A DNA stretch of 59,664 nt from contig JAHEZH010000010.1 of assembly GCA_023251155.1 (NCBI GenBank), positions 1 to 59,664 on the forward strand. Direction: 5' to 3'. This DNA comes from Flammeovirgaceae bacterium. GTDB lineage: Bacteria; Bacteroidota; Bacteroidia; Cytophagales; Cyclobacteriaceae. Both the position numbers and the translations under genes were made by a program. The number at the start of each line of letters is the position of its first letter. The stretch's first letter is position 1. Positions 7,822 to 59,365 of this stretch are shown piece after piece. Under the pieces are notes generated by a model. It was not told the origin of the DNA, did not search any database, and saw only the letters and a list, made by a program, of their open reading frames with translations.

Positions 7822-7998
7822 ATATCGGGTATATACGCCTGGTTGATCTCATGCTGAGGTGGATAGGGTTATAGTCTTACCATGGCTGTTTTTCTTGCAA
7901 TGACATGGTCCTTCGTTCTGTGAGGGCACCAAACCGCGGAGCTGGTAAATACATTATCTTTTCTCTATATCATCCGTACTACCTGCGGCTTATACATC
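7822..7998. other. Intergenic region, nothing recognised
   Basis: This stretch between the Kunitz gene and the metE leader contains a loose inverted repeat (ACCATG near 7880 and CATGGT near 7905) but no T-run and no credible gene. Confidence 0.3.
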
Positions 7999-8006
7999 TA
8001 TATTTG
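7999..8006 (+). promoter_or_regulatory. Candidate -7 promoter element (TATATTTG) of the metE riboswitch transcript
   Basis: TATATTTG matches TAnnTTTG exactly and lies about 35 bases upstream of the start of the cobalamin riboswitch, where a promoter is expected. No good TTG is seen at -33. Confidence 0.5.
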
Positions 8007-8039
8007 CAACATCAACCGTTCTTTGTTTGTATAAACCAT

Positions 8040-8276
8040 CATAGCCGTTGCAGGTTTCCCTTAGCGGGGAATTAATAAGGAACCGTGTGTGAATCACGGG
8101 CTGTCGCGCAACTGTAATCCTGTTCTGCTTTGGATAACCCTTGAAGCAGAAACAAGCTTTGTTCTTAATACCATTGTCTGCCAGCTGGCGGATGAGAAGG
8201 TGAACAAGGTCAGGGAAGCCAGGAGACTTGCCTATAACGCCATGACATTTTGCTTCCGCGATATGAAGCAGAGGTC
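8040..8276 (+). promoter_or_regulatory. Cobalamin (AdoCbl) riboswitch controlling metE
   Basis: The conserved core is visible in order: GGGGAAT at 8067-8073, the stem around CCGTG/CACGG (8083-8099), GCTGTCGCGCAACTGTAA (8100-8117, G at 8100), and the B12 box GCCAGGAGACTTGCC (8218-8232). Spacing between core and B12 box fits class I cobalamin riboswitches. Immediately downstream, GAC...TTTTGCTTC (8244-8256) pairs with GAAGCAGAGGTC (8265-8276) with one bulge and wobbles; this may be part of the expression platform. The first gene downstream is metE, the classic target: AdoCbl would repress this B12-independent enzyme. Confidence 0.92.
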
Positions 8277-8420
8277 AGGCATGACTTAATTTTAAGGACC
8301 AGCGTTCTGCCATGTCCTGTATGGTCATTCCTTTCTTTCAACAACGTATTGCGTAAGTAAATAGGTGATCCAACAAAAGGTTGCGCAGTCAATCTATGTT
8401 TCACTTAAACAAAAGCAACA

Positions 8421-10742
8421 ATGCTTACGCAAAATCTTGGCTATCCGCGCATCGGTAGCCATCGCGAACTGAAGAAGGCCAGTGAAAGTTACTGGTCGGG
8501 CAAGTCTACCTTCAAGAATCTCTTGCAGGTAGGGAAGAACATCCGTCATGAAAACTGGCAGCTGCAAAAGCAAGCCGGTATTGACCTGATTCCTTCCAAT
8601 GATTTTTCATTTTATGACCAGGTGCTGGATATGTCACTCACGGTGGGTGCGATTCCTGAACGCTATCATGAAGTGATATTGAACAACGCCAACTCTGAAC
8701 TGGACTTGTATTTCGCTATGGCGAGAGGGTATCAGAAGGAAGGTTTGGATATTACCGCTATGGAAATGACCAAGTGGTTCGATACCAACTACCACTACAT
8801 TGTGCCTGAGTTTTATAACGACCAGCCCTTCAAACTCTTCTCTACCAAAATCATAGATGAGTTTTATGAAGCCAGGCAGGCAGGTATTCTTACCAAGCCA
8901 GTGCTACTTGGCCCAGTTTCCTATTTGTTATTAGGTAAAGAAAAAGAAGCGGGCTTCCACCGTATTGATTTGCTGAAGAATTTACTTCCGGTGTATATCG
9001 ATCTGTTGAAACGATTGGAAAAACTGGATGTACAATGGGTGCAGTTTGATGAACCATTCCTGGCATTGGACCTGAATGACAAAGAAAAGAAAGCCATTGC
9101 TTACGCGTACGCGGAAATCAGAAAGGCGTTTCCTGCACTGAAGACTATCGTAGCCACGTACTTTGAGGGCTTGCGCGATAATCTCTCCGTAGCGGCATCA
9201 TTACCCGTTTGTGCTTTGCATGTTGACTTAGTGCGTGCGCCTCAGCAAATAGACGAATTGCTTAAAGCCATTCCTGAAAAGATGACACTTTCGCTTGGTG
9301 TGGTGGATGGACGTAACATCTGGAAGAATGATTTCAGTAAATCACTTGCTTTAATCAATAAAGCAGTAGCAGCTCTTGGTGAGAAGCGAGTGATCATTGC
9401 ACCCTCCTGCTCGTTGATACACACTCCATGCGATCTTGATTTGGAGACCAATGACGATACGTTGCTTCCTGAAATCAAAAACTGGATGGCTTATGCCAAA
9501 CAGAAGCTGAATGAACTAGCTGTATTGAATAAACTGGCTTCGCAGGAAACGAAAGAGCAGTTCACCTCTTCATGGATTGAAAACCAGAAGGCCATTGAAA
9601 GTAGGAGAACATCTGCTCGTATTCATAAGCCGGAAGTAAAGCAGCGCGTAGCTGCATTGACCGCTGCTGATGCCAACCGTCATAGTCCTTTTGCTATTCG
9701 CCAGAAGAAGCAGCAGGATACACTGAAGCTCCCTTTCTTTCCGACAACTTCGATTGGTTCGTTCCCGCAAACTGATGAAGTGCGCAGCTGGAGAGCACGT
9801 TTCAAGAAGAACGAGTTAACACAAGCCGGTTATAATGATTTGATCAAGGCAGAAACGGAAAAGGCCGTGCGCTGGCAGGAAGAAATCGGTATTGATGTAT
9901 TGGTACACGGTGAATTTGAGCGTAACGACATGGTGGAATACTTTGGTGAGCAACTGCAAGGCTACGTGTTCTCGAAGAACGGGTGGGTGCAGAGCTATGG
10001 CTCGCGTTGTGTGAAACCTCCCATTATTTATGGAGATGTATCGCGCCCTGAACCGATGACGGTATTCTGGACTACCTTTGCTCAGTCATTGACGAAAAAG
10101 CCGATGAAAGGAATGCTTACCGGCCCGGTGACCATTCTGCAGTGGTCTTTTGTACGTGATGATCAGCCCAGAAAAGATACCTGTACACAAATCGCGTTAG
10201 CCATTCGTGATGAAGTGGTGGATCTGGAGAAGGCCGGAATACAAATTATTCAGATTGATGAACCCGCTATACGTGAGGGACTACCCTTGCGCAGAGCGGA
10301 TTGGGAGATGTATCTCGATTGGGCGGTAAGAGCATTCCGTATATCGGCCAGTGGTGTGAAGGATGAAACACAGATACATACGCATATGTGCTATTCTGAG
10401 TTTAATGACATCATCAAGAACATTGCGGATATGGATGCCGATGTGATCACCATTGAGACCTCACGCTCGCAGATGGAATTGCTGGATGCATTTGTTGATT
10501 TCAAGTATCCGAACGAGATCGGACCGGGGGTGTACGATATTCATAGTCCCCGTGTGCCAACGACAGAAGAGATGGTTGCTTTACTTCACAAAGCACTTCA
10601 CGTACTGCCGAAGAGAAACATATGGGTTAACCCTGACTGTGGATTGAAAACACGAAAGTGGCCGGAAACGGATACAGCTGTCCGTAACATGGTGAATGCC
10701 GCACAGCAGATGAGAGAAATAGCTGAAACAGTGAGTGTTTAA
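8421..10742 (+). CDS. metE: Cobalamin-independent methionine synthase MetE
   Basis: A 773-residue enzyme of the length expected for MetE (5-methyltetrahydropteroyltriglutamate-homocysteine S-methyltransferase), which makes methionine from homocysteine in the cytosol without B12. The N-terminal half begins with the family sequence NLGYPRIGSHRELKKA. The C-terminal catalytic barrel starts at TTSIGSFPQT and carries the zinc ligands in HTHMCYSEF (about residue 655) and NPDCGLKTR (about residue 739). It lies 144 bases after the cobalamin riboswitch and ends at a strong terminator, so it is a single-gene B12-repressed unit. Confidence 0.98.
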   Translation: MLTQNLGYPRIGSHRELKKASESYWSGKSTFKNLLQVGKNIRHENWQLQKQAGIDLIPSNDFSFYDQVLDMSLTVGAIPERYHEVILNNANSELDLYFAMARGYQKEGLDITAMEMTKWFDTNYHYIVPEFYNDQPFKLFSTKIIDEFYEARQAGILTKPVLLGPVSYLLLGKEKEAGFHRIDLLKNLLPVYIDLLKRLEKLDVQWVQFDEPFLALDLNDKEKKAIAYAYAEIRKAFPALKTIVATYFEGLRDNLSVAASLPVCALHVDLVRAPQQIDELLKAIPEKMTLSLGVVDGRNIWKNDFSKSLALINKAVAALGEKRVIIAPSCSLIHTPCDLDLETNDDTLLPEIKNWMAYAKQKLNELAVLNKLASQETKEQFTSSWIENQKAIESRRTSARIHKPEVKQRVAALTAADANRHSPFAIRQKKQQDTLKLPFFPTTSIGSFPQTDEVRSWRARFKKNELTQAGYNDLIKAETEKAVRWQEEIGIDVLVHGEFERNDMVEYFGEQLQGYVFSKNGWVQSYGSRCVKPPIIYGDVSRPEPMTVFWTTFAQSLTKKPMKGMLTGPVTILQWSFVRDDQPRKDTCTQIALAIRDEVVDLEKAGIQIIQIDEPAIREGLPLRRADWEMYLDWAVRAFRISASGVKDETQIHTHMCYSEFNDIIKNIADMDADVITIETSRSQMELLDAFVDFKYPNEIGPGVYDIHSPRVPTTEEMVALLHKALHVLPKRNIWVNPDCGLKTRKWPETDTAVRNMVNAAQQMREIAETVSV

Positions 10743-46142: not shown

Positions 46143-46185
46143 AAAGTAAAAAAATAACCCCGTGAGTTTCAGCCTCACGGGGTTA
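46143..46185 (-). terminator. Terminator of the minus-strand 46-51 kb genes
   Basis: TAACCCCGTGAG (46155-46166) pairs perfectly with CTCACGGGGTTA (46174-46185). On the minus strand the hairpin is followed by a T-rich run. It lies just after the stop of the small secreted protein and before the esterase start. Confidence 0.93.
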
Positions 46186-46207: not shown

Positions 46208-46636
46208 TTAACGCTTGAATCCAAGAGCACTACCACCGCATTTGCCACCTCCATCGAAGGTGTACTGGATGTAGTAAATACCTGTTGCGTTGCATGGATA
46301 GGCAATGGCAGAAACCAGTTGCCCGTTGATTTTACTTGATGCCACTTTGTTACGGTTAGAATCAAACAAGCTTACTACAATACCATCCGTAGCCGTTCCG
46401 TTAGCACAAAGGTTGATCATGTATTGCGTTCCTTTCGTGAATACGTAGCTATACTCTACTTTATCTTTCGCACCACCTTCACCGTCTACCTTGTAGCTTT
46501 TGAGAAAGTTGAATCCGTCAGCTAATTTAGGAATACATGCGTTGCTGAAACCATCAGCGTTACATTGACCAATCAAGTTGTAAGATGTAAAACCAGAGAT
46601 GAGCAGCAGAAATACAATTGCACCTATCTTTTTCAT
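46208..46636 (-). CDS. Small exported protein of unknown function
   Basis: This 142-residue protein has a signal peptide (about 1-23; GFTSYNLIGQ precedes C24). The mature part has six cysteines (C24, C33, C96, C113, C131 and near it) and short beta strands such as YSYVFTKGTQYMINLCANG and GIYYIQYTFDGGG. The layout suggests a small jelly-roll-like pre-peptidase C-terminal type domain, but I do not recognise the family. It is the last gene before a strong terminator and lies 40 bases from the lipoprotein gene upstream of it. Confidence 0.7.
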   Translation of the reverse strand: MKKIGAIVFLLLISGFTSYNLIGQCNADGFSNACIPKLADGFNFLKSYKVDGEGGAKDKVEYSYVFTKGTQYMINLCANGTATDGIVVSLFDSNRNKVASSKINGQLVSAIAYPCNATGIYYIQYTFDGGGKCGGSALGFKR

Positions 46637-46676: not shown

Positions 46677-47573
46677 TCAATTAATAATCTTATTTCTAAG
46701 GGTATTCGTCAGGTTGCGAATGGCTTCTACATCCGCATCCGTAATGTCAATTGTAGTGGTGCTATTGTCTTTAATCATGGCCACTCCATTTACAATTTCC
46801 ATGGTAGATTCCTTATACGTATAAGTGATATTGATTTTATCAAAAGCAGCTTTCAATTGCTCCAGATCCTTCAATAAGGATGCCATATTTTCATCGTCTT
46901 TATAGAAAGAGAAAAGCAGTACAATTTGCTCCAGAATGATCTTTTGTTCACCAATGGTTTCCTTCAAGGCGGCATTTTTTGGATTTCTTGCCGCCACCTG
47001 ACACGTGATCTGCATGGCTTCAACCCATCCACCCGTCAGTGAAAGTACACTCAGGTTGGAGCGACTTTGCGTTTGCAGGTAGTGATTGATGTTGTTAAAA
47101 TTCTGGGTGGTAATCAACAGCAGGGAGTCGAGGTTTTTGCTGTTGGTCGCCAGTCTTCCAATGGTTTCAATATCAAAAAACTGCCCAATGTTCAGCCCGT
47201 CAGCGATGGACTTGATGGAGGCCAGGTATTTGATACCGTCTTCATTGCGTTCGTAAATGTTGGTGTATCCCAAATCGGTACCGTAAACTCCCAGATTAAG
47301 CGCTTTTTGATAGCTGCTGTTGTATTTGGAGAGATTGTCGGGAGAGTTCAGGAAGGACACATCGTACTTAGTACCCGACTCCTTCAGGAGAACTGAAATT
47401 TCCAGAGGACTCGGAATGGATTGTAAAACACTACTGATGACTTCCTCATCGATAGTGGGGCCTTGTGTTTTGGCGGAATCCAAACTCGCCAGGAATTCCT
47501 TTTCATCTGGTTTTTTTCCTGAACCGCATGCGGCTAAGACCACCGCCAAAAGAGCTATAAGTACTGTTCTCAT
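46677..47573 (-). CDS. Lipoprotein of unknown function
   Basis: A 298-residue lipoprotein with signal LIALLAVVLAACGSGKK (C16). The mature part is almost all alpha helical, with conserved-looking segments IPSPLEISVLLKESGTKYDVSFLN, LNLGVYGTDLGYTNIYE-like sequence, and an acidic middle. I do not recognise the family, but similar helical lipoproteins sit next to ABC exporters in Bacteroidota. It follows the 1018-residue ABC gene by 64 bases on the same strand, so it may be an accessory of that exporter. Confidence 0.75.
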   Translation of the reverse strand: MRTVLIALLAVVLAACGSGKKPDEKEFLASLDSAKTQGPTIDEEVISSVLQSIPSPLEISVLLKESGTKYDVSFLNSPDNLSKYNSSYQKALNLGVYGTDLGYTNIYERNEDGIKYLASIKSIADGLNIGQFFDIETIGRLATNSKNLDSLLLITTQNFNNINHYLQTQSRSNLSVLSLTGGWVEAMQITCQVAARNPKNAALKETIGEQKIILEQIVLLFSFYKDDENMASLLKDLEQLKAAFDKINITYTYKESTMEIVNGVAMIKDNSTTTIDITDADVEAIRNLTNTLRNKIIN

Positions 47574-47637
47574 ACCTTAAAATTATCGTATGCAAAATTA
47601 AAAATTCACTCCTCCTTACCAAAAACCTTACGTTCGT

Positions 47638-50600
47638 TTACTTCTTCTTAGGAATGTTAACTTTTTCGAACGAACTGATCAATTTACGTAAAAGCTCGAA
47701 GTATAAAGCCAAATAAAGGGCAATGGACATCATCCATATAACCAATATATTGAAAATGTAAGTACTAATGTTAACTCCGAATAGATTCTTATTGGGAAAA
47801 AAGAAAGCCGTGCGGTAGTCCAGTAGGGAAGATGGTTTCGGATCCTGGAAAATAGGATTGATCTGCTGGATCAGTTCACCCTTGTATTCCATCAATCGCT
47901 CTTTTGTATTTACGTTTTTAACCAGGTCAGCCAGGCTTTCGTTGTAGTATTTGTTTTTATAGTCATTGACGGAATATCCTGCTGTGTTTTTTTCAAAATA
48001 GGCCATTGCCTTTTCTTCAATATCCACGTTCCTGTTGTATTCCTTTTGATAATACTTCTGAAAATTGTCGAGGTATGTTTGAATTGCCTGACCTATTTCT
48101 TTTGTGTATTTGCCGGGCACCAGTACTTCCTTCAGATCGATCTTCTCTACGCCCTGCCGGAACGGTTCATCTCCCAGCTCATCACGAAGAATAGATAAAT
48201 TATACCCCATGATTTTTTTAACTGAATCGTTCGGGTTGTTAATATTTTCGAGCAGGTACATATTCTTACGCTTCAGTTCATCGCCAAGGTACCCCGCTTT
48301 GAAATCGGCTTTTGATCCTTCGCTGTTAAACTGGTAATACGGCTGCTCGTATTCATTGTTTTTGAATTGATACACGGCCATGGCTTCATACGCCCAGCGC
48401 GAAGCCATCATGTCGGCTACTACCGGCACTTTGCCTTTGGTGCTGATCAGGTTATTGAGTTTATCAAAAGGGAATAGCAATCCGCTCAGGATCATCTGAG
48501 GGATGAGTAGCAGCGGAATCATTACATATACCGTAACAGCCGAATTGAAGGCCGAACTGATATTCAATCCCAATACATTGGCAAAACAGGAAGTGCTGAA
48601 CAGTACCAGCCAGAAGGCGAACGTCATTCCTTTGATTTCCAGTATGAGGTGCCCGATAAAGACATACGATAAGGTTTGGATGGCGGAGAGCATGAACAGG
48701 ATACCCAGCTTCGAGAACAGATAACTATTCCAGCTCAGGTTGAGGAACGATTCACGTTTCAGTATTCGCCTGTCACGAATGATTTCTTCGGCACTTACCG
48801 TAAGCCCCATGAACAATGCCACGATAATGGACATGAGCATGAAGGCAGGGAAGTTGTCGTTGAAACGGAAAATGTATTCTTTGCCACCGGGTGCGCTTTT
48901 GTACTTGATGATAAAGGCAAGTATAATGGCCAGCAGCGGGCCTTCTAGCAAATTGATCAGCAGGTATTGCTTGTTGCTGAGCTTGGCCAGGAAATCGCGT
49001 GTGCTGAAAATCTTGATTTGCTTGATCCAGTTGGGAATTTTTAATGTAACGGGCGGAGCTTCACGGATATCCTCAATGCGATTGATCTTGAACCGCTCCT
49101 TATACATTTCATTCCACTTGACCGGAGTAACCTTGCGCTTGTTGGTAGGTTCACCGTATTCATCGACTACTTTCGCTTCGATGATATTGAAGATCTGTTC
49201 CGGGTTTACATTACCGCAGGTTTCGCATTGCCCGCGGTTGCTGTCTACCTGATGTGTTGATTTCTTAAAATAGGTAACGGCTTCTACCGGAGGGCCATAA
49301 TAGGAAGGATAACCACCGGTATCCATAATGATCATCTTGTCAAACATCTTATAAATGTCGGACGATGGCTGGTGGATCACCACGAAGATGAGCTTGCCTT
49401 TCAGTGAGAGCTCCTTCAGTAAGTCAATTACATTTTCTGAATCGCGCGAAGAGAGGCCAGAGGTGGGTTCATCCAGAAAGAGAATGGCGGGCTCGCGGAT
49501 TAACTCTAAAGCAATGTTTAATCTTTTACGCTGGCCACCGCTGATGGTCTTTTCCAGTGGATTACCCACTTTCAGGTCTTTACGCTGATCAAGACCTAAA
49601 TTTTCAAGTACTTCCATGACGCGTTTCTGCAATTGCTCTTCGGTATAGTCAGCAAAGCAAAGTTTCGCGTTATAGTATAAGTTTTCGTAAACAGTTAATT
49701 CCTCGATCAGTAAATCGTCCTGCGACACAAATCCGATTACGCCTTGTATCTGATCTTTCTGAGTATGGATATTAAAACCATTGATCAGAATTTCACCTTT
49801 ACTCGGTTTTTCCAAGCCCGCAAGGGCAAGCAGCAAAGTGGTTTTACCGGCACCGCTGGCTCCCATGATACCGATGAGCTTACCTGGGCCTTCGGATATG
49901 ACCACATCGCGTAAGCCAATAGCACCGTTGGGAAATTTGAATTCCTCGATGTTGGCGTTGAAAGATAATTTGGTTGTTCTTAACTCTTCGTTGAAAGCAG
50001 AGACCAGGTCACTGTAATAGTGCGCGTCACCGGCCTGTGTTTTGATGGTGCTTCCATGAGAGAACAAATACACCCTGTTGGATTGCATGATGAATCCATT
50101 GAGTATGGTTGCTTCCTCACCCAGGTATTTGGTGAAGTACATATCCACACTGGATACACGCATAAAGACCAGGTTACCTTCCAGGTGAGCGTGTCCGTGT
50201 TTTTGCAATTCGGCCGATTTGCCCGGAGCCGAATTGACGATAAGGATATCAGGGAAATTGAGCTGAGCTACATCTTCGCTGATGACGAATGACTCAATGA
50301 GCAGATACTGTTCCTGCACAATGTTAAACACAGTCGATACCGTGTTTATAATTTCCATACGTTGAGGAGTGAAGTTCTTGTCAGAACCTACCAACTCCAG
50401 CAACTTGATCAGTACAATGGTCTTTTGTTTTTGAGTAAGCGTCTTGTTGATCTTCTTGCAGATCCCCAGGGTTTTAACAGAATCTTTTACGGAAGTGAGT
50501 TTGTTCTTTTCTTCTTCTTTTCCATAACCTGAAAAATCATCATAGAGCTGAACGTATTCCTTTACGGAATCCTGGTCCAGTTCCTGTTGAAAAAAACGGA

Positions 50601-50694
50601 TAATAAACTGTCTCTCGTTTTCTGTAACACCACCATCCTGCTTTGTGATAATCGCAAAAAGCTGGGTTAGCGCCTTGAGTATTTCCTCACTCAT
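47638..50694 (-). CDS. ABCG/White-type ABC exporter with extra N-terminal domains
   Basis: A 1018-residue half-transporter fused in the order ATPase then permease, as in the ABCG group. Before the ATPase lie a helical domain resembling TerB (1-145) and a beta-rich stretch of about 80 residues resembling an FHA domain (150-235). The ATPase has Walker A GASGAGKTT (about 275-283), signature SGGQRKRL and Walker B LFLDEPTSGL. A CETC motif lies near residue 485. The membrane domain (about 560-1010) contains a long extracytoplasmic insert of about 200 residues before the last helix. Substrate is unknown. It lies downstream of the siaA/B/C-like genes with a 78-base gap and is probably linked to them. 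Confidence 0.88.
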   Translation of the reverse strand: MSEEILKALTQLFAIITKQDGGVTENERQFIIRFFQQELDQDSVKEYVQLYDDFSGYGKEEEKNKLTSVKDSVKTLGICKKINKTLTQKQKTIVLIKLLELVGSDKNFTPQRMEIINTVSTVFNIVQEQYLLIESFVISEDVAQLNFPDILIVNSAPGKSAELQKHGHAHLEGNLVFMRVSSVDMYFTKYLGEEATILNGFIMQSNRVYLFSHGSTIKTQAGDAHYYSDLVSAFNEELRTTKLSFNANIEEFKFPNGAIGLRDVVISEGPGKLIGIMGASGAGKTTLLLALAGLEKPSKGEILINGFNIHTQKDQIQGVIGFVSQDDLLIEELTVYENLYYNAKLCFADYTEEQLQKRVMEVLENLGLDQRKDLKVGNPLEKTISGGQRKRLNIALELIREPAILFLDEPTSGLSSRDSENVIDLLKELSLKGKLIFVVIHQPSSDIYKMFDKMIIMDTGGYPSYYGPPVEAVTYFKKSTHQVDSNRGQCETCGNVNPEQIFNIIEAKVVDEYGEPTNKRKVTPVKWNEMYKERFKINRIEDIREAPPVTLKIPNWIKQIKIFSTRDFLAKLSNKQYLLINLLEGPLLAIILAFIIKYKSAPGGKEYIFRFNDNFPAFMLMSIIVALFMGLTVSAEEIIRDRRILKRESFLNLSWNSYLFSKLGILFMLSAIQTLSYVFIGHLILEIKGMTFAFWLVLFSTSCFANVLGLNISSAFNSAVTVYVMIPLLLIPQMILSGLLFPFDKLNNLISTKGKVPVVADMMASRWAYEAMAVYQFKNNEYEQPYYQFNSEGSKADFKAGYLGDELKRKNMYLLENINNPNDSVKKIMGYNLSILRDELGDEPFRQGVEKIDLKEVLVPGKYTKEIGQAIQTYLDNFQKYYQKEYNRNVDIEEKAMAYFEKNTAGYSVNDYKNKYYNESLADLVKNVNTKERLMEYKGELIQQINPIFQDPKPSSLLDYRTAFFFPNKNLFGVNISTYIFNILVIWMMSIALYLALYFELLRKLISSFEKVNIPKKK

Positions 50695-50772: not shown

Positions 50773-51135
50773 TTAATACGTTTTGAATTCGAAGGGGATT
50801 TCCACCAACTCAGAAAACTCTTCACCTGCTTCTTCCATGTCTTCATCATCTTCGTGAAAGTACCAGAGTATTTTCATGCCTTTGATATCTTCCAGTGCAG
50901 AAAGCACATCCAGAATCAGTTTAGAGGAAGCGGTATTGAAGTATTCCAGTTTGAAAACAAATTCAGTAGAAGCATTGGCTTCGGCAGCATATTTCTCCAG
51001 CCACTCTAACACAGGGCGGTAAAATTCAGCTGAATCTTCGGGGAGTGAACGACCTGAAATTTCAAAGATTCCATTCTTCTTATCCAACATGATTTTCGGT
51101 GTGTCCTCAGTTCCTTCTAGATTTAAAATTTCCAT
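50773..51135 (-). CDS. siaC: SiaC-like regulatory phosphoprotein (DUF1987)
   Basis: A 120-residue DUF1987 protein. In Pseudomonas aeruginosa, SiaC is phosphorylated by SiaB and dephosphorylated by SiaA, and its free form activates a diguanylate cyclase, SiaD. The residue reported to be phosphorylated there is Thr68. Here the motif YFNTASSK puts a Thr at position 68 (N67, T68). The N-terminal LEGTEDTPKIMLDKKNGIFEISGRSLPED is typical of the family. It lies 43 bases after the SiaB-like gene. No SiaD-type cyclase is visible; the next gene is an ABC exporter, so the output here may differ. Confidence 0.92.
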   Translation of the reverse strand: MEILNLEGTEDTPKIMLDKKNGIFEISGRSLPEDSAEFYRPVLEWLEKYAAEANASTEFVFKLEYFNTASSKLILDVLSALEDIKGMKILWYFHEDDEDMEEAGEEFSELVEIPFEFKTY

Positions 51136-51178
51136 GATTATCCAGTTTATAAATGATAATGTTTTTTGTCGATTGTAA

Positions 51179-51733
51179 TTATTCTTTTTCGCGCGATACG
51201 TTCACCTTCAGGCAGAAGAAGGCGTAGTCGGCATCCATTTCAGGAAAAATAAATTCAAGCTTTTCGCCTGACTTACGGGCCATGTCTACAAAGCCAAGAC
51301 CAGCACCTCCCTTTTCAGAGATCTGTGTGTTCTTGATGATTGCCTTGTACATTTCTTTTAACCCTTCCTTATCCTGTGCATTCAGGTCTTCCAGGTTTTT
51401 AGTGAGGCTGGCTACGTGTTCTTTGGCAATAGGATTACCAGTAAGAATGCTGTAACGGTTTTCATCTTTAGAAATCATGAAAATTGCACTGGAGCTTACC
51501 AAAGAGCCTGCCTTAGTACCTTTTTCACTACTGTGTTTAACAATATTCTGAAGGGCCTCCACCATCACATTAAAAACCTTTCGCTTTATGCTCGAGTCCT
51601 CTCCGGAAGAGTCGAGGTTACGCTCGGCCATGGCGAGAATCGATTTGGTAGTTTCCTGGGTGAAGTCCCCTTCGTATACCAGAATCAACTTCTGTGTCAT
51701 CATGGTGCGATGCAGGTCGTAAATGAAATTCAT
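51179..51733 (-). CDS. siaB: SiaB-like HATPase protein kinase (DUF6272)
   Basis: A 184-residue SiaB-type kinase with a HATPase fold like anti-sigma factor kinases. The N box is EALQNIVKH (E59, N63, H67), and the G-rich lid is GGAGLGFVDMARKSG (about 141-155). In the Pseudomonas system SiaB phosphorylates SiaC. It lies between the SiaA-like phosphatase and the SiaC gene in the same order as siaABC. Catalytic activity is inferred from motifs. Confidence 0.92.
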   Translation of the reverse strand: MNFIYDLHRTMMTQKLILVYEGDFTQETTKSILAMAERNLDSSGEDSSIKRKVFNVMVEALQNIVKHSSEKGTKAGSLVSSSAIFMISKDENRYSILTGNPIAKEHVASLTKNLEDLNAQDKEGLKEMYKAIIKNTQISEKGGAGLGFVDMARKSGEKLEFIFPEMDADYAFFCLKVNVSREKE

Positions 51734-51816
51734 TGCTTTAGAGTTTGAAGTCCGAATTTAGAGTTTTTGATTTATTAAAATAATTGTTTTGTGGTCTTTT
51801 CCTGAATCTGAGTGCT

Positions 51817-54800
51817 TTAGAACTTAATACCGATCAGCAAGACGTCATCCGTTTGCTTGTGTTCTCCGCGCCATCCTTCCCATTCGGTATCAAAGATTTC
51901 ACCGGCCTCTTTCATGGCCAGCGTATTCACGCGCTCAATAATTTCGCGCACTTTCTTCGGCCCGAATTTACGACCTTCCGGTCCACCAAACTGATCAGGG
52001 AAACCATCGGAGCTGAAATACATGGAATCTCCGGGATTGAACTGAATTTTCGTATTGGTGAAGTTAGTCTGATTTTTATAGATACCTCCTCCGATCGGGA
52101 ATTTGTTTCCTTTCACCTCATCCATCACACCATCTTTGATGTAATACAGCGGGCGGTGTGCGCCGGAGTATTCCACCTCGCGGGTTTCGATGTTGATACG
52201 GCAAAGGGCGATATCCATACCGTCTTTGGTCGCACTGTCATCCTGATCCTGACGAAGGGTTTGGGTTACACCTTCATCCAGCAGGTCAAGGATTTTACCC
52301 GGATCAGTAACTTTACGGCTTCGTACAATATCATTCAACAGGAAGTAGCCGATCAAGGAGAGCAATGCTCCTGGTACACCGTGGCCGGTACAATCTACTG
52401 CGGCAATAAAGATGTCGTTCTTCATCTGTACAAACCAAGGGAAGTCTCCGCTGACTACGTCACGGGGTTTGTAGAGGATAAATGAATCCGGCAAGGTCTT
52501 ATTGACCAACCGCGTATTGGGCAGAATGGCATTCTGGATACGCTTGGCGTAGTTGATGGAGTCGTTGATCTTCTTGTTCTTGTTCTGAATCTCCACCTCA
52601 ATCATTTTACGCTCGGTGATATCGTGCGATACAACGAGTACCGATTCCAGGTGTTTGTTTTCATCGTACTCCGGCATGGCATTTACCTGCATGATCAGTT
52701 TGCCCTGACCAGAAGGGAAATCCATTTCAGTCGATACTTTATCGTTGGTGGTATTTACCTGCTCAACAATCTGCAACCATTTGTCCAGAATAGTGCTGTC
52801 CAGATCGGTTTCTCTTACCTTCTTATTGAGGAAATGATTGGGCTTCTGACCGGTGAACGCCTCGATTACCGGGTTGATGTAGGAGATGGAATCATTTTCA
52901 AGACGGGCGATAAGGTCAAGCGAGTTTTCAGAAAGGGCCTGCATCTTGCTTCGCATGCGTTGTTCCTGTTCAGCTCTTCTGCGCTCGGTAATATCGCGCG
53001 AGTTGACAATGTATCCGCGTATGGCAGGGTTAGCCATATTGTTGGTACCGGTCGATTCAATCCATACATAAGCGCCATTGCTGCTCTTGTATTCGTATTG
53101 CACGGTTGCTTTTTCGTCTGGCTTATTCTTCAGATGTGCAAACAATTCTTTGAATGATTCCAGGTGATCGGGATGAACTTTATCCAGATCCTTTGTTCCC
53201 TGCAGGTCTTTCTGAGCATAACCCAAGATCGGCTGCACGGAAGGAGAGATGTAACGGATCGTGCCGTCCTGCTCGTAGATGGTGATGACTTCCGAAGCGT
53301 TTTCCAGCAAGAGCTGCATCCGCTTCTGCTGATTGTTTACTTCTTCGATCTGTTCTTCCAGGCGCTGGTTACTGCGTTGCAGTTCTTCAGAGGTAGCCTG
53401 CATTTCTTCTGCATTCTGGCGAAGTACTTCCTGCTTTTCTTTCAGCTCATTACTCATGGCCTGTGATTCGGCCAGCAAGGTGCGTGTGCGTTCGTTCACC
53501 TTGATGTTGAAGATGGTACGGGCAAGAATCAAACTTAACTCTTGCACAAACTTTACCTGCGATGAGTCAAATCGTTTGAACCCGGCAAACTCCAGCACAC
53601 CATACACTTCTTCGTTGGTGATCAACGGCACAATCAAAATACAGGTTGGTTTCTGATCACCAAGGATACCCGAAGTGATACTCATGTACTCGTCGGGTAT
53701 TTCTGTGCGCATCACTGTGTCCTGCTCGATGGCGGCCTGACCTACCAGGCCTTCAGCAAAGCGGAAAGATTTCTTTAAGTATTTTTTACGATTGTAGGCA
53801 AAACTGCTGCGTAGTTCGATCCGCTTCTCACCGCTCTCATCATTCACTACATAGAATGCACCCTGTATTGCACCAATCTTTCCAAGAATGAATTTGATCA
53901 CGTCATCACCCAGTTCATCCAGGGTGTCGTGCAATCGGAGAATTTCTCCTACCTCGGCCACCCCGCGCACAATCCAGTTGCGTTCCGTATCTCTGCGCTC
54001 ATTCTCAATCAGGTTGTTACGCATATCGATGAGTGACAGACCGAGCGTATCGTTTTCACTGGCCGGGCTGAATGCGGTATCAAACTTTCCTTCTCCTACT
54101 TTCTGTGCAAATTCAGCATTGCCTTTCAGCACCAGTACCAGTTCATCTACCTTCACCGCCATGCGACCGAATTCATCGCTTGAGTGGTTGTCGCTTGGTT
54201 CTGGCAGCACTCCTTTTGACACCATCTCTAATGTGTTGCGCATGGTATTGAGAGGCTCGGTCAGTGAGCGGGCAAATATCATCGAGAATAACACTCCCAG
54301 GATCACGATCGTGATACCGGCAAAAACGTAGATGTTAACCAATTGCTTGTTGGCTAATTCAATCTCACTAAAGTCGAACTTAGTGACGATGATCCAGTTG
54401 CCAATTTTAGACTTGGTCCAGCTCGCTACTACTTTGGTATTGCGATAGTCAGTAGCTTCTCCATTTCCTGTTTCTGATTTCTGAGCGAACTGTGCCAGCT
54501 CTGCTTTCTTGTCGGTAAGATCCAGCGTTTTTAATGCCGCTGCGGTGTCCAGTCGCACGGGGCCCTGCACCAGTACCTTTTTGGTACCGGGATCTTGTTT
54601 CAGAATAACCACTTCACCGGATGCTCCCAGTTTATCGGCTCTGCTTAAGGAGGTGAATAAATTCTTTACATCTATTTTGCCAATTAAAATCAGTTCACCT
54701 ACCTGCACCCCTGCGTACAGGGTGTATTGTTTATCCGATTCTCTTTTCACATTGCTGAATGCCACCTCATGCGCCGCATCGCTGAAGAACGAATTGTCGA

Positions 54801-55161
54801 CTGCCGAAAAATGATTTCCTGCCGCCTGCTTTGCATCGGTCGATTGAACAATACTTCCTTTGCTATCCGTAATGATTACTTCGCTCCACTGAAATGCGCT
54901 TTTTATTTTTTCTGCATTTACCTGGTTGGTCGAATCAGTGGAATTCTGCACTAAGTGTAATGAATTGCTGATGGCCGAGAGATAATTGTCCACCACTACT
55001 TTGTTGACAGCTGAAACTGCACTCAGCTCTGAGGCGATGCGTTCTTGCGCCGCTTTCTGATTGATTTTATAAGTGAACAAACTGATCGTAACCACCGAAG
55101 CGATGGTCAGCAGGAGGATGAGGCCCGTTATCTTTGCACTTATTTTAAAATTTCTAAACAT
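51817..55161 (-). CDS. siaA: SiaA-like membrane PP2C phosphatase with HAMP, GAF and two PAS domains
   Basis: A 1114-residue sensor phosphatase. Order: TM1 (about 10-30), an extracytoplasmic cache-like domain (about 31-275), TM2 (about 275-298), HAMP (about 299-350), GAF (about 410-550), coiled coil (about 550-615), PAS1 (about 620-740), PAS2 (about 745-870) and a SpoIIE/PP2C domain (about 905-1114). The PP2C metal-site motifs are visible as VSGDF, DCTGHGVPGALLS, SSDGFPDQFGG and TDDVLLI. Canonical SiaA has only the cache, HAMP and PP2C parts, so the GAF and two PAS domains are additions that integrate cytosolic signals. It would dephosphorylate SiaC. It lies 20 bases after the GAF gene and 83 bases before the SiaB gene. 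Confidence 0.95.
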   Translation of the reverse strand: MFRNFKISAKITGLILLLTIASVVTISLFTYKINQKAAQERIASELSAVSAVNKVVVDNYLSAISNSLHLVQNSTDSTNQVNAEKIKSAFQWSEVIITDSKGSIVQSTDAKQAAGNHFSAVDNSFFSDAAHEVAFSNVKRESDKQYTLYAGVQVGELILIGKIDVKNLFTSLSRADKLGASGEVVILKQDPGTKKVLVQGPVRLDTAAALKTLDLTDKKAELAQFAQKSETGNGEATDYRNTKVVASWTKSKIGNWIIVTKFDFSEIELANKQLVNIYVFAGITIVILGVLFSMIFARSLTEPLNTMRNTLEMVSKGVLPEPSDNHSSDEFGRMAVKVDELVLVLKGNAEFAQKVGEGKFDTAFSPASENDTLGLSLIDMRNNLIENERRDTERNWIVRGVAEVGEILRLHDTLDELGDDVIKFILGKIGAIQGAFYVVNDESGEKRIELRSSFAYNRKKYLKKSFRFAEGLVGQAAIEQDTVMRTEIPDEYMSITSGILGDQKPTCILIVPLITNEEVYGVLEFAGFKRFDSSQVKFVQELSLILARTIFNIKVNERTRTLLAESQAMSNELKEKQEVLRQNAEEMQATSEELQRSNQRLEEQIEEVNNQQKRMQLLLENASEVITIYEQDGTIRYISPSVQPILGYAQKDLQGTKDLDKVHPDHLESFKELFAHLKNKPDEKATVQYEYKSSNGAYVWIESTGTNNMANPAIRGYIVNSRDITERRRAEQEQRMRSKMQALSENSLDLIARLENDSISYINPVIEAFTGQKPNHFLNKKVRETDLDSTILDKWLQIVEQVNTTNDKVSTEMDFPSGQGKLIMQVNAMPEYDENKHLESVLVVSHDITERKMIEVEIQNKNKKINDSINYAKRIQNAILPNTRLVNKTLPDSFILYKPRDVVSGDFPWFVQMKNDIFIAAVDCTGHGVPGALLSLIGYFLLNDIVRSRKVTDPGKILDLLDEGVTQTLRQDQDDSATKDGMDIALCRINIETREVEYSGAHRPLYYIKDGVMDEVKGNKFPIGGGIYKNQTNFTNTKIQFNPGDSMYFSSDGFPDQFGGPEGRKFGPKKVREIIERVNTLAMKEAGEIFDTEWEGWRGEHKQTDDVLLIGIKF

Positions 55162-55181
55162 ACAATTCCTGGTAATTTCTA

Positions 55182-55970
55182 TTAACCGATTTTATCTGCA
55201 AGTAAGGTGGCCATTTCATCAATTTGCTTTCTGATGTTTTCTTTCAATGGCGAGAACGTAGCCAACTCCATGACTCCTTTTATTTCATTTCCTTTTCTGA
55301 TCACGGAGAGAAGCAGGAATCTTGGTGACGCACTTCCCAGCCCACTCAGCACCGTGATGTATCCTTCCGGAATATCATCGATATAAAGACTCTTTCCGGA
55401 CAAGGCTGCCTGCCCGACCAGGCCTTCGCCGAATTCAAATTGTACTTTGTTGCTTTCTGCCATATTCAGGGCATAACCCGAGCGAAGTTCAAGCACACGC
55501 TTGTCGTCTTTCTGAGCGGCTACATAGATCGCACCCTGCCCGGCATCCAGCTGCTTGCTGATGGAGTTAAGGCCTGACTGAAGTGTTTCTTTTTCGCCCT
55601 TGACCTGATCGATGGCCGCCCGAAATGCTTTGACCAGGTCGGAATCTTCTGCCTGTCCTCCGCTGGTTCCTTCAGTTGTTGCGTTTTCGGTTTTACGCTT
55701 TTCCAGGTAAACGATGGTTTCTTTTTTGGTGAGCAGTGCAAAGAGAACGGCACCCAGGCCGATCAAGAACGTGATGAAGATGACCGCGAATAGCTGAATG
55801 AATACGGGCCATGCTCCGTCTACACTGGCTACCTGACCTTTGTACACCAGGTTGTGCGGAAGCATAAACAAAACGAATGCAGATACAACGATGCCTGCAA
55901 AAAAGAATACGCTGATGACCTTGCCCAGCCTGGCCTGATCTTTAAACAATTGTGTAATACGTTGCGTCAT
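55182..55970 (-). CDS. Membrane GAF-domain protein
   Basis: A 262-residue protein with two membrane helices (about 15-35 and 52-75), a short linker and coiled coil, and one GAF domain (about 110-262). The GAF motif GEGLVGQAALSGKSLYIDDIPEGY closely resembles those of the SiaA-like phosphatase and the 57.6-59.4 kb protein. No output domain. The gene overlaps the cheB stop by four bases (ATGA), so translation is likely coupled. Its probable role is to sense a ligand and pass the state to partners in this operon. Confidence 0.88.
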   Translation of the reverse strand: MTQRITQLFKDQARLGKVISVFFFAGIVVSAFVLFMLPHNLVYKGQVASVDGAWPVFIQLFAVIFITFLIGLGAVLFALLTKKETIVYLEKRKTENATTEGTSGGQAEDSDLVKAFRAAIDQVKGEKETLQSGLNSISKQLDAGQGAIYVAAQKDDKRVLELRSGYALNMAESNKVQFEFGEGLVGQAALSGKSLYIDDIPEGYITVLSGLGSASPRFLLLSVIRKGNEIKGVMELATFSPLKENIRKQIDEMATLLADKIG

Positions 55971-56560
55971 TTATACTGTCTGTCTAGTTCTTTCAAAAAA
56001 TCTACAATCTCATCTACTTTCATCACGTGATCGATTTGTGTCAGTGCCATGGCAGCCTTCGGCATGGTATCGATCATACACTCGGCCGGTTCCTGCACCA
56101 GGGTAAGCCCCCCTTTGTCTTTGATGTACTTCATGCCCAGACCTCCATCGCGGTTAGCGCCTGAGAGAAGTATACCAATCAGCTTGTCGCGATACACATA
56201 CGCGGCCGTGCCCAGGGTGATGTCAATAGCGGGCCGCGAGTTATTGATCATCTCTTCCGTAGATAAGGCGAAGTAATTTCCCAACTCCACGGACAGGTGA
56301 TAGTTGGAAGGAGCCAGGTACACTGCCCCCTTTTTAATGGGTTCCTTATCGTATGGTTCACTTACCTGCACTACACTTTTTATTGACAAGGCCTCCACGA
56401 ATCCATTGCGCACGTGCTTGAGCCGGTGGAGGCACATGATGATTGGAAGAGGAAAGTTCTTTGGCAACTGCGAAAGTATTTTCACAATCCCCTGGAAGCT
56501 GCCTGCTGACCCCCCTATAACAACGGCTTTGTAGCTGTTATTTAAGTTGTATTTATTCAT
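55967..56560 (-). CDS. cheB: Stand-alone CheB-type protein-glutamate methylesterase
   Basis: A 197-residue CheB catalytic domain without a receiver domain. The catalytic triad is visible: Ser18 in IGGSAGS, His45 in CLHRLKH and Asp138 in GANRDGGLGM. CheB removes methyl groups from glutamates of chemoreceptors. No chemoreceptor or CheA is nearby; the partner CheR gene is 13 bases upstream, and the next genes code for membrane GAF sensors. The pair may methylate and demethylate these sensors. This is inference. Lacking a receiver, its activity is not controlled by phosphorylation in the classical way. Confidence 0.95.
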   Translation of the reverse strand: MNKYNLNNSYKAVVIGGSAGSFQGIVKILSQLPKNFPLPIIMCLHRLKHVRNGFVEALSIKSVVQVSEPYDKEPIKKGAVYLAPSNYHLSVELGNYFALSTEEMINNSRPAIDITLGTAAYVYRDKLIGILLSGANRDGGLGMKYIKDKGGLTLVQEPAECMIDTMPKAAMALTQIDHVMKVDEIVDFLKELDRQYK

Positions 56561-56573
56561 GGGCCTGCTTCCC

Positions 56574-57398
56574 TTAGTCCTTTATCTTCTTATACACTTT
56601 TTCCTCATTGTTCACCACGATGAACTTGCTGGCGATGTCGCACCAGATCAGTGACTCTTTCGAACCAATGGCCAGGTACCCGTACTTGAACAAACTCTCG
56701 TGGAATTTCTTCAATACATCGTTCTGCAGCGACTGGTTGAAATAGATCATTACATTGCGGCACAGGATCAGATCAAACTTGTTGAAGATCTCGCCGGTTA
56801 CCAGATCGTGTTTTCGGAAGGAAACGTTCTTGACCAGGTCTTTGTCAAACACAGCCCGGCCGTTTTCTTCCTTGTAATAATCCTTCAGTGATTTTTTTCC
56901 TTCGTAGCGGATATAGTTTTTTTCGTTCAGCTCCATGTTTTTGATGGGATAGGAGCCTGATTTTGCTTTCTCTAATATGTTTACATCCAGATCGGTAGCG
57001 ATGGTAGTAACCTGGTCCAGTATGCCCATTTCCTTTAACAGGATGGCCATGGAAAACACTTCTTCACCCGAAGAGCATCCTGCATGCCAGATCTTGAATT
57101 CTTTGTGGTTGAGCTGAATGCCAGGGATGATTTCATCGCGAAGGATACGCCAGAAACTGGGGTCGCGGAACATCTCGGTCACGTTCACGGTCAGCTCATC
57201 CAGAAACTCGTCAATGAAAGTGGGTTGTTCGGTTAATTTCTTGATAAGTGCTTCTACACTCATGCTTTTTAGTTCCAGAATCCTCAGCATACGTCTTTTA
57301 AAAGACGACATGGCGTAGTTTCTGAAATCGTATCCGTGCTTCTTTTGGATCAGCTCGGTGATTCTTTTTAAGTCTGCAATGTCAATGTCTTGAACCAC
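56574..57398 (-). CDS. cheR: CheR-type protein-glutamate methyltransferase
   Basis: A 274-residue CheR with both the N-terminal helical domain (LKRITELIQKKHGYDFRNYAMSSFKRRMLRIL) and the SAM-binding domain. Motif I is WHAGCSSGEEVFSMAI, motif II TDLDVNILEKAKSG, and the later LCRNVMIYFNQ is the catalytic-site signature. It is the first gene of the run that continues through cheB, the GAF gene, siaA, siaB and siaC. It would methylate glutamate residues on a partner sensor. No chemoreceptor gene is adjacent. Confidence 0.96.
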   Translation of the reverse strand: MVQDIDIADLKRITELIQKKHGYDFRNYAMSSFKRRMLRILELKSMSVEALIKKLTEQPTFIDEFLDELTVNVTEMFRDPSFWRILRDEIIPGIQLNHKEFKIWHAGCSSGEEVFSMAILLKEMGILDQVTTIATDLDVNILEKAKSGSYPIKNMELNEKNYIRYEGKKSLKDYYKEENGRAVFDKDLVKNVSFRKHDLVTGEIFNKFDLILCRNVMIYFNQSLQNDVLKKFHESLFKYGYLAIGSKESLIWCDIASKFIVVNNEEKVYKKIKD

Positions 57399-57628
57399 AG
57401 GAAGAGGATTAAATAAACCAACTAAAAAACAATACTGCTAAACTTTAACAGTAAGCCCAAAAATAAATTAACCTGATTTTACAGGCCTGCTTATAAGGAG
57501 GTAAAACTTACATGTGTTTAATCTCACCTCTTCACCTCATTTATTTCTTAAAGGGCTTCGAAATTAAGCATTTCGCTCAGGTTTTGGATAGCCCCTCCAA
57601 ACTCTTATTTTTTTTTAATGGCCAAGTC
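57399..57628. promoter_or_regulatory. Intergenic region upstream of the cheR operon
   Basis: This 230-base gap lies between the receptor-like gene at 57629 and cheR. It is AT-rich and should hold the cheR promoter, but I see no clear TAnnTTTG element on the minus strand and no terminator hairpin after the receptor-like gene. Confidence 0.35.
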
Positions 57629-59365
57629 TCACCTTTTTCGCGAAAGCTCGGCTTGGGTAATTTTCAGTGCTTCCAGTTGAATCTGAAGGGTTTCCTGCAT
57701 TTGTTCTGCCATAGCCCAGTCGTTTCCACGGGCAGGCTCCTTCAGCTTTTGTTCTAATTCTGCTATTCTGATCAGGTAATCGCGCTCCTTGCGGCTCATC
57801 TCTTCCTGGGTGGCCGTCAGCTCTTCCATGTTCTGGCGCATCTCTTCTTCCTGTGCGTGCATCGCTTCGGCTGCCATCTTCGATTCTTCCAGTAGTTTGC
57901 GGTTGCGCTGGTTGTTTTTCACCGATGCCAGGGTACTGGCCAGTGTTTCGCCCAGCTTTTCCACAAAACTGATTTCATGCGGCAGGTAAGGTTTGAAGGA
58001 AGCAAGTTCCACCAGCCCGTACACATTCATGTCTACTTTCAAAGGCACTACTAGGATGGCTTTCGGGTTTGCCTCGCCCAGGCCCGAGGTGATGCGGATG
58101 TAATCTTCCGGTATCTCGCTCAGGTAAATCGTATCTTTTTCCAGGTACGCCTGGCCTACCAGGCCTTCGCCTAATTTCAGTTTCTGCTGCTCGTATTTTT
58201 TGGTGTTGAAAGCATAGAGGGAGATCAATTCCAGGTATTTGTTCTGGTCATCTTCATCGTTCAGCACGTAAAGGCTGCCCTGATTGGAGCCAGTGTACTG
58301 CACCAGTGTAGCGATGATCGAATCGCCCAGTACGTGAATGTTGTCATTGCTTGATCGCAGGATGTCCACAAATCGGGCGACACCTTCATTCGCCCATTTT
58401 CGTTTCTGCTCTTCCTCATTCATGGTCTTCAGCTTGGTTTGCATCGATACCAGTGAGGCGGCCAGGTGATTGCCTTCCACGGACTGATCCGTTTGAGTGT
58501 ACACGGTTTCCAGGTTGCCTTCGCCAATGTTTTGCACAAAGGAGGAAGCCTGATTGAGCTGATCGATAATGTGATTAAGCCCGCCGGCTACTTTTCCTAT
58601 TTCATCGGCCTCCACCTGATCGACATACTCGCGATTAATAGCGGCTTTTTCGATTTTCTTTAAGGGCAACACTATCTTCTTGCGGAAGATAAATACGGCT
58701 ATGAACAGCAGTGCGATGGAAATGAATGTGCTTGCCCCGATAACAAACACCAGCAGCGACCAGTTGGCCTCCGCATCTTCGTGTATATCTTTTTCCAGCG
58801 CGCTGAACTGGCCGGAAAAGATGAGCCATTGCCCAGGGAGTACGGTATGTGCTTTCGCAACAGCCGGGTCTATTATTTTTTGTGTTACCGGTTGTGTTAC
58901 TTCGTTGGTTACGCTATCCGACACCACTTCGGTGACAGTCGTCATCACCGTGCTGTCTTTCCATACTTCATGTGTGGTGATGGTGAACAGGCTTTTTTTG
59001 TAAGCTTCCCATGTTTCCAGAGAGCGGTTCAGGGTAATCTGCGTAAGCCGCGATACCGGACTGATCGCTTCTTTGGTGCTGCTGATCACACCTCCCTCTT
59101 TCAGTATTTTAAATTGGGTATTGAGTTCTTCTGTTCCGGCTACGATCGCATTGAGTTTACTTTTTTCTCCACGAAGGAAAAGAGCGACATCCGTAGAAAG
59201 CTGTAATGCCTTCATCTGGCTGGTGTGGATCACCCGCTCTTGTTTTTCATTTACACTCCATCGATGTAAGCATACACGGATCACCACCAACTGGATAATC
59301 ATGACAAGCGTAAACAGTACCGCCAGGGCTACCGATTTACTTTGGAGATTTTTGAGCCTGAACAT
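57629..59365 (-). CDS. Membrane receptor-like protein with HAMP and GAF domains, no output domain
   Basis: This 578-residue protein has TM1 (about 12-32), an extracytoplasmic region (about 33-205), TM2 (about 208-232), HAMP (about 233-285), GAF (about 340-485; GEGLVGQAYLEKDTIYLSEIPEDY) and a C-terminal coiled coil (about 490-578; MRQNMEELTATQEEMSRKE). It stops at the coiled coil with no kinase, cyclase or PP2C domain, so it probably works through partners such as the nearby phosphatase or CheR/CheB. The extracytoplasmic part contains repeated TVTEVVSDSVTNEVTQPV sequence. It may be a methylation target of CheR, but this is inference. Confidence 0.9.
   Translation of the reverse strand: MFRLKNLQSKSVALAVLFTLVMIIQLVVIRVCLHRWSVNEKQERVIHTSQMKALQLSTDVALFLRGEKSKLNAIVAGTEELNTQFKILKEGGVISSTKEAISPVSRLTQITLNRSLETWEAYKKSLFTITTHEVWKDSTVMTTVTEVVSDSVTNEVTQPVTQKIIDPAVAKAHTVLPGQWLIFSGQFSALEKDIHEDAEANWSLLVFVIGASTFISIALLFIAVFIFRKKIVLPLKKIEKAAINREYVDQVEADEIGKVAGGLNHIIDQLNQASSFVQNIGEGNLETVYTQTDQSVEGNHLAASLVSMQTKLKTMNEEEQKRKWANEGVARFVDILRSSNDNIHVLGDSIIATLVQYTGSNQGSLYVLNDEDDQNKYLELISLYAFNTKKYEQQKLKLGEGLVGQAYLEKDTIYLSEIPEDYIRITSGLGEANPKAILVVPLKVDMNVYGLVELASFKPYLPHEISFVEKLGETLASTLASVKNNQRNRKLLEESKMAAEAMHAQEEEMRQNMEELTATQEEMSRKERDYLIRIAELEQKLKEPARGNDWAMAEQMQETLQIQLEALKITQAELSRKR

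Follow-up and report, generated by a model that had tools for sequence, protein, structure and literature searches.

Background

Methylation of receptors as a form of memory is chiefly known from chemosensory arrays, the Wsp and Frz systems being chemosensory pathways built on methyl-accepting chemotaxis proteins (MCPs) and CheA. The Sia partner-switching system of Pseudomonas aeruginosa, the genes of which we take to follow the order siaA-siaB-siaC, comprises a HAMP-PP2C phosphatase, a SiaB-type kinase, the phosphoprotein SiaC with its Thr68 and the diguanylate cyclase SiaD. The present analysis concerns a locus in which a SiaABC-like switch is joined to a cheR/cheB pair and to the gene of an ATP-binding cassette (ABC) transporter. 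It lies in a stretch of 59,664 nucleotides (hereafter the window; assembly GCA_023251155.1, contig JAHEZH010000010.1, positions 1 to 59,664) from a Flammeovirgaceae bacterium of the order Cytophagales, family Cyclobacteriaceae.

The available parts of PMC8457831 report that phosphorylation of Thr68 stops SiaC from binding SiaD in P. aeruginosa, and contain the authors' suggestion that DUF1987 proteins are modulators of adjacent proteins; an excerpt of PMC2535941 deals with the methylation sites of FrzCD. The locus shares with SiaABC(D) a SiaC carrying Thr68, a SiaB-type kinase, a HAMP-PP2C phosphatase and the gene order, and differs from it in having no diguanylate cyclase, in the GAF, coil and PAS regions added to the phosphatase, in the presence of cheR and cheB upstream and in the ABC transporter gene that comes after siaC. 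With the MCP/CheA pathways it has in common a CheR/CheB pair and HAMP-containing receptors whose coils bear EExxA[ST] sites, whereas its two substrate candidates lack the MCP signalling domain, its CheB lacks a receiver domain and its output is a SpoIIE/PP2C phosphatase. The module is a new combination of known parts; as far as the accessible text of the literature covered goes (subscription papers and preprints being outside its scope), no description of cheR/cheB combined with a Sia switch and a transporter was found.

We tentatively propose, with doubt slightly outweighing confidence, that the locus represents a second class of methyl-accepting signalling, in which GAF/PAS receptors with an EExxAT coil and no MCP tip would be served by a dedicated CheR/CheB pair and would adapt a SiaA/B/C phosphatase switch gating an ABC transporter, in bacteria possibly devoid of chemoreceptors. 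The cluster suggests a sensory-adaptation system independent of chemotaxis receptors. If this is true, methylation-based adaptation would be a portable device, the same enzymes being tied to a partner-switching phosphatase across the order; the retention of a single CheR/CheB pair by many genomes in which no chemoreceptor was found would be explained; and DUF1987/SiaC would gain an output other than synthesis of cyclic di-GMP.

Conservation of the locus

The seven genes named by an earlier reading of the DNA (the sequence-only reading) are all open reading frames (ORFs) on the minus strand where it had placed them, with domains confirmed by Pfam and NCBIfam, and its view of a Sia-type switch merged with cheR/cheB is borne out by the domain matches and the conserved loci. 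The gene set that it assigned to a cluster at 50773..59365 also stood, whereas the end of that cluster did not, since siaC is succeeded, with unchanged orientation, by the ABC transporter gene, a putative lipoprotein gene and a small secreted-like gene. The order of transcription is HAMP-GAF, cheR, cheB, GAF, siaA, siaB, siaC, ABC transporter, lipoprotein and small gene, all on the minus strand. From cheR through siaC the intergenic gaps are 13, -4, 20, 83 and 43 bases, a gap of 230 bases separates the HAMP-GAF gene from cheR, and after siaC there are 78 bases to the ABC gene, 64 to the lipoprotein gene and 40 to the small gene.

Conservation was examined in a sample of 146 genomes of the order, many of them draft assemblies, with close homologs defined by at least 58% identity for SiaC and at least 52% for CheB; these cuts were set at gaps judged by eye, and lower rows were dropped, including the SiaC copy C223 of the window's own genome. 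Close homologs of SiaC were identified in 78 genomes, of CheB in 78 and of both in 76, with SiaC alone in two and CheB alone in two, G048 being counted as SiaC-less even though a truncated SiaC of 73% identity opens its contig L228. The two genes lie within 12 kb of each other in 60 of the 76 genomes, and all 60 pairs are on the same strand with CheB upstream, at a median distance of 5.7 kb; in the other 16, SiaC and CheB are located on different contigs (14 genomes) or far apart on one contig (two). Locus regions, 69 in number (L154-L222), were taken from 68 of the 78 genomes with a SiaC homolog, the window's own genome and nine others being left out. The phylum sample was searched at strict thresholds.

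A further set of named loci, the best 80 of 481 as picked by CheB similarity, includes organisms such as Fulvivirga, Chryseolinea, Ohtaekwangia, Marivirga, Persicobacter and Rhodocytophaga, and at least seven of these loci repeat a siaC gene of the order sample. Same-strand matches are present in all 80 for CheR and for CheB, in 79 for the GAF protein, in 77 for SiaA, in 74 each for SiaB, SiaC and the ABC transporter, in 71 for the lipoprotein and in 65 for the small protein; in the six loci without SiaC the contig end was reached first. Least constant is the HAMP-GAF gene, which has a same-strand match in 36 of the 80. The complete set is present in L253 of Ohtaekwangia koreensis. Chance adjacency of cheR/cheB and the sia genes, against which the sequence-only reading had to be weighed, is refuted by the 60 close pairs out of 60 on the same strand with CheB upstream and by 74 of the 80 named loci. 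It is near certain that the cheR/cheB, Sia and transporter genes constitute one conserved functional unit.

The Sia-type switch

All three parts that define a SiaABC switch, namely a SiaC-family protein with Thr68, a SiaB-family kinase and a membrane HAMP-PP2C phosphatase, were found. The SiaC-like phosphoprotein (50773..51135, minus strand; 120 amino acids; Pfam SiaC PF09345, E 7.5e-40) aligns with the DUF1987 chain of 6kko, its Thr68 standing opposite the NTSS threonine of that chain. In an alignment of 139 rows, which like the per-protein motif counts below pools the order sample and the named loci, Thr68 is identical in at least 97% of the rows. The same holds for N63 and the GAGLG motif of the SiaB-like kinase (51179..51733, minus strand; 184 amino acids; DUF6272 4.4e-42; NF038262 SiaB_fam_kinase 179 bits, cut-off 85), which aligns with 6kko_A.

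The SiaA-like phosphatase (51817..55161, minus strand; 1114 amino acids) has matches to SpoIIE (3.9e-17), GAF_2, PAS_9 (in two stretches) and HAMP (24.4 bits against a cut-off of 25), arranged as an N-terminal sensor region, HAMP, GAF, coil, PAS and SpoIIE/PP2C. Its PP2C part matches the P. aeruginosa entry 6k4e with 144.9 bits and, in the homolog alignment, keeps D906, D923, D1052 and D1106, which we take to be metal ligands. The NCBIfam equivalogs are all below cut-off (SiaA of P. aeruginosa, 221 versus 700 bits; kinase_SiaB, 84 versus 225; phos_prot_SiaC, 88 versus 150). Judged from these residues, the SiaA/B/C switch proteins look functional.

SiaC-family proteins are also found outside such loci. 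The window's own genome has two more copies (L223:9563-9925, minus strand, and L224:9972-10334, plus strand; 59% and 54% identical), both of which keep the phosphosite NT[AS]SSK and have no siaA or siaB match within the stretch; the copy on L224 comes after an extracytoplasmic function (ECF) sigma gene (L224:8154-8684) and two small genes. Expansion of the family is seen in G044 and G094, two genomes of over 9 Mb with at least 28 matches each, and across the 12 genomes of family f14, with 11 to 28 matches. In L222 (G002), three tandem SiaB-like genes (7924-9681) lie beside one SiaC and ABC gene; this genome is without the strict motif described below and has its CheB homolog on a different contig.

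Proposed mechanism

In the proposed mechanism, stimuli would be sensed by membrane HAMP-GAF receptors, namely the 578-residue protein of the locus, related proteins encoded at other places in such genomes and the SiaA-like phosphatase. Glutamates of the EExxAT coil behind the GAF domain would be methylated by CheR and demethylated by CheB, setting gain or adaptation, and this methylation would tune the SiaA-like PP2C against the SiaB-like kinase and hence the phosphorylation of SiaC at Thr68. One of the two forms of SiaC would then bind the TerB/FHA-like region on the cytoplasmic side of the transporter and switch transport, and the putative lipoprotein and the small secreted-like protein may cooperate with the transporter. 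That phosphatase activity is set by GAF receptors tuned through methylation, and that the transporter is controlled by the phosphorylation of SiaC, is a view we hold to be evenly poised between right and wrong. What the analysis shows directly is the gene content, the constancy of gene order, the conservation of phosphosite and catalytic residues, the position of the motif described below and the co-occurrence of the genes; methylation, the glutamates it would modify and the contact of SiaC with the transporter are inferred, as would be any sign of that contact or any cargo.

Output of the switch

The sequence-only reading had expected an output other than SiaD, and this was upheld: GGDEF has no match in the window's own genome and is matched in only one of the 146 genomes of the order, so that SiaD cannot be the output here. 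The TerB/FHA-like ABC transporter is proposed as the best candidate. This protein (47638..50694, minus strand; 1018 amino acids) combines TerB (1.4e-6), a possible FHA-like fold at about residues 150-232, an ABC ATPase (ABC_tran, 8.1e-32) and an ABC-2 membrane part (ABC2_membrane, 3.3e-19; all Pfam). Its gene adjoins siaC, with matching orientation, in 60 of the 68 order-sample loci and in 74 of 74 named ones, and its N-terminal part is matched in 77 of the 78 SiaC-homolog genomes, with G057 counted as transporter-less although L176 has a 45% match adjoining siaC. The transporter is on balance probably the target of SiaC.

The assignment has to be weighed against several observations. The transporter does not adjoin siaC in 8 of the 68 order-sample loci; its N-terminal part is also matched in 12 genomes without a SiaC homolog and has paralogs; and the near-invariant residues of positions 150-232 include no Arg or His (123 rows, and also 16), as read from the alignment only, without structure-based mapping of the site. 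The classical FHA site motif presumably consists of phosphothreonine-binding Arg and Ser/His residues. An alternative, which we regard as rather unlikely, is that the switch is real and the coils are methylated while SiaC acts on another protein (a phosphatase, a kinase or a sigma/anti-sigma pair), the transporter being merely co-regulated. The eight loci just mentioned would fit it, as would the two extra SiaC copies of the window's own genome, one of them beside the ECF sigma gene, and the single strict promoter-like match, which precedes the lipoprotein gene; the adjacency to siaC (60 of 68 and 74 of 74 loci) and the near-constant presence of the N-terminal part (77 of 78 genomes) argue for the transporter as the output instead.

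The closest described transporter is Rv1747 of Mycobacterium tuberculosis, an FHA-ABC transporter according to the available part of PMC5549992; compared with that account, the transporter of the locus adds TerB and adjoins a SiaB/SiaC switch, and the classical phosphothreonine-binding residues are not among its conserved ones. Two TerB-ABC paralogs occur in the window's own genome (L360:2944-6003 and L361:1-2923, both minus strand) on contigs without a SiaC match, and the transporter family is thus wider than the Sia/CheR/CheB module. G126 has two loci (L211 and L215), one with cheR-cheB-GAF-siaA-siaB-siaC and no transporter, the other with a second cheR-siaB-siaC followed by transporter, lipoprotein and small gene.

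CheR, CheB and their candidate substrates

CheR (56574..57398, minus strand; 274 amino acids, GTG start; Pfam CheR 3.3e-44) has homologs of 56-84% identity across the order. CheB (55967..56560, minus strand; 197 amino acids) is a stand-alone methylesterase domain (CheB_methylest, 1e-47) with no other Pfam domain found; S18, H45 and D138, which we take to be the Ser-His-Asp catalytic triad, are invariant in 14 aligned sequences. The CheB homolog of G138 (G138:C29:23405-23989) has one in-frame TAA, and may be broken or carry a sequencing error. A Pfam scan of eight proteins of the locus identified no MCP signalling domain. In the order, this domain (PF00015) is matched in 53 of 146 genomes, and among the 76 genomes that have both SiaC and CheB homologs 38 show no such match, 29 of them with a single CheB domain; in these 38 genomes CheR/CheB must therefore act on a substrate other than MCPs. 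Salmonella PhoP is a precedent for CheR acting on a non-MCP protein, although the site identified in vitro was an arginine and, in the part of PMC8546571 available, PhoP glutamates were not seen to be methylated by CheR.

Candidate methyl-accepting sites were located with a DNA pattern for EE-hydrophobic-x-A-T-x-E-E, which is a strict version of the consensus for MCP methylation given in the accessible part of PMC1079850. The window has two matches, against none in 100 shuffles, and each is situated behind a GAF domain. One is EELTATQEE (57800..57826, minus strand; residues 514-522) in the HAMP-GAF receptor-like protein (57629..59365, minus strand; 578 amino acids), which has GAF_2 (1.4e-13), a sub-threshold HAMP (E 0.0075), a C-terminal coil judged by eye and no output domain found by Pfam search. 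The other is EEMQATSEE (53383..53409, minus strand; residues 585-593), between GAF and PAS of the SiaA-like protein. Among homologs, the strict motif is present in 25 of 26 HAMP-GAF and 92 of 135 SiaA proteins; homologs of the seven other locus proteins never have it, and nine of them, counted over all seven, have a relaxed form. The seven include the membrane GAF protein (55182..55970, minus strand; 262 amino acids; GAF_2 5.3e-10; two N-terminal hydrophobic stretches by eye), the gene of which overlaps cheB by 4 bases; with the strict motif in 0 of 120 homologs and the relaxed one in three, it is not an obvious methylation substrate. In 129 aligned SiaA rows the motif columns are retained as E585 in 117, E586 in 114, A589 in 103 and T590 in 122.

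By genome, the strict motif occurs in 76 of the 78 with a CheB homolog (37 of the 39 MCP-less ones), in 11 of the 68 without and in 2 of the 34 in which no CheB domain at all was found; within the four families that have both kinds of genome, it is present in 19 of 19 with a CheB homolog versus 2 of 24 without. The pattern read backwards, as a control, gave one match each in 7 of the 146 genomes. Many of the listed matches fall outside the locus: 20 such stretches chosen among them from MCP-less genomes hold 21 ORFs with the motif, so the genome-wide link does not reside in SiaA alone. Ten of these ORFs were scanned: histidine kinases account for two and a SpoIIE protein for one, and in the other seven, which encode GAF or GAF-PAS proteins, no output domain was found. 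Motif and CheB-homolog link together back the suggestion of the sequence-only reading that glutamates of the sensors may be methylated; the backing applies to the two HAMP-GAF proteins, whose coils are likely substrates of CheR/CheB.

It is unlikely that the true targets of CheR/CheB are other receptors, either MCPs or GAF/PAS proteins standing alone, and that the pair is merely co-expressed with a phosphoswitch that methylation does not control. Half of the 78 CheB-homolog genomes, the window's own and 38 others, do have MCP matches, and the motif occurs in receptor-like proteins elsewhere as well as, in three MCP-bearing genomes chosen for motif and MCP matches lying close together, within ORFs that also encode MCP and PAS domains; the other 39, however, have no MCP match, and the motif is borne by the phosphatase itself. 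That EExxAT is a mere trait of GAF/PAS coiled linkers, with CheR/CheB modifying something unrelated, is highly improbable given the 19 of 19 versus 2 of 24 in the mixed families, even though the linker is broadly conserved and the motif is found in 11 of 68 genomes without a CheB homolog, two of them without any CheB domain found.

Methylation of the SiaA-like and HAMP-GAF coils nevertheless has the following points to contend with. The window's own genome has six MCP matches, all located elsewhere than the locus, and eight CheB matches, and 9 of the 38 MCP-less pair genomes have more than one CheB domain. Among SiaA homologs the strict motif is absent from 43 of 135 and the relaxed one, present in 108, from 27, with the relaxed motif inside the GAF-PAS linker in 94 of 129 rows. 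The SiaA coil is well conserved throughout, the motif not being singled out, and coils rich in E and A can yield it by chance; as SiaA often bears the motif, its genome-wide link with CheB is partly built in. In G102 (92% complete), which bears SiaC together with the motif, the search returned no CheB domain. A separate observation is a 932-residue GAF protein in G087 (L329:4155-6953, plus strand) with five EExxATxEE at 70-residue spacing, resembling a tandem array of methylation sites.

Downstream genes and transcription signals

The transporter gene is followed by that of a putative lipoprotein (46677..47573, minus strand; 298 amino acids), for which a mostly helical model with a predicted local distance difference test (pLDDT) score of 84.2 was obtained; C16 is conserved in at least 90% of 50 aligned sequences and a lipobox-like pattern in just 66 of 114 rows. 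Downstream of it is the gene of a small protein (46208..46636, minus strand; 142 amino acids), secreted-like by eye from its hydrophobic N-terminus and without a Pfam match above cut-off. A terminator-like stem of 12 pairs (46155-46185) with a T run (46148..46185, minus strand) comes after this last gene and is the strongest such site of the scanned region; the scan gave 19 sites against 15.7 (sd 5.0) expected, and only strength and place speak for this one. The sole match in the window to TTTG-N17..21-TANNTTTG, which we take to be the Bacteroidota promoter consensus, is located at 47593..47623 (minus strand) before the lipoprotein gene, and from this candidate promoter the lipoprotein and small genes may also be transcribed separately.

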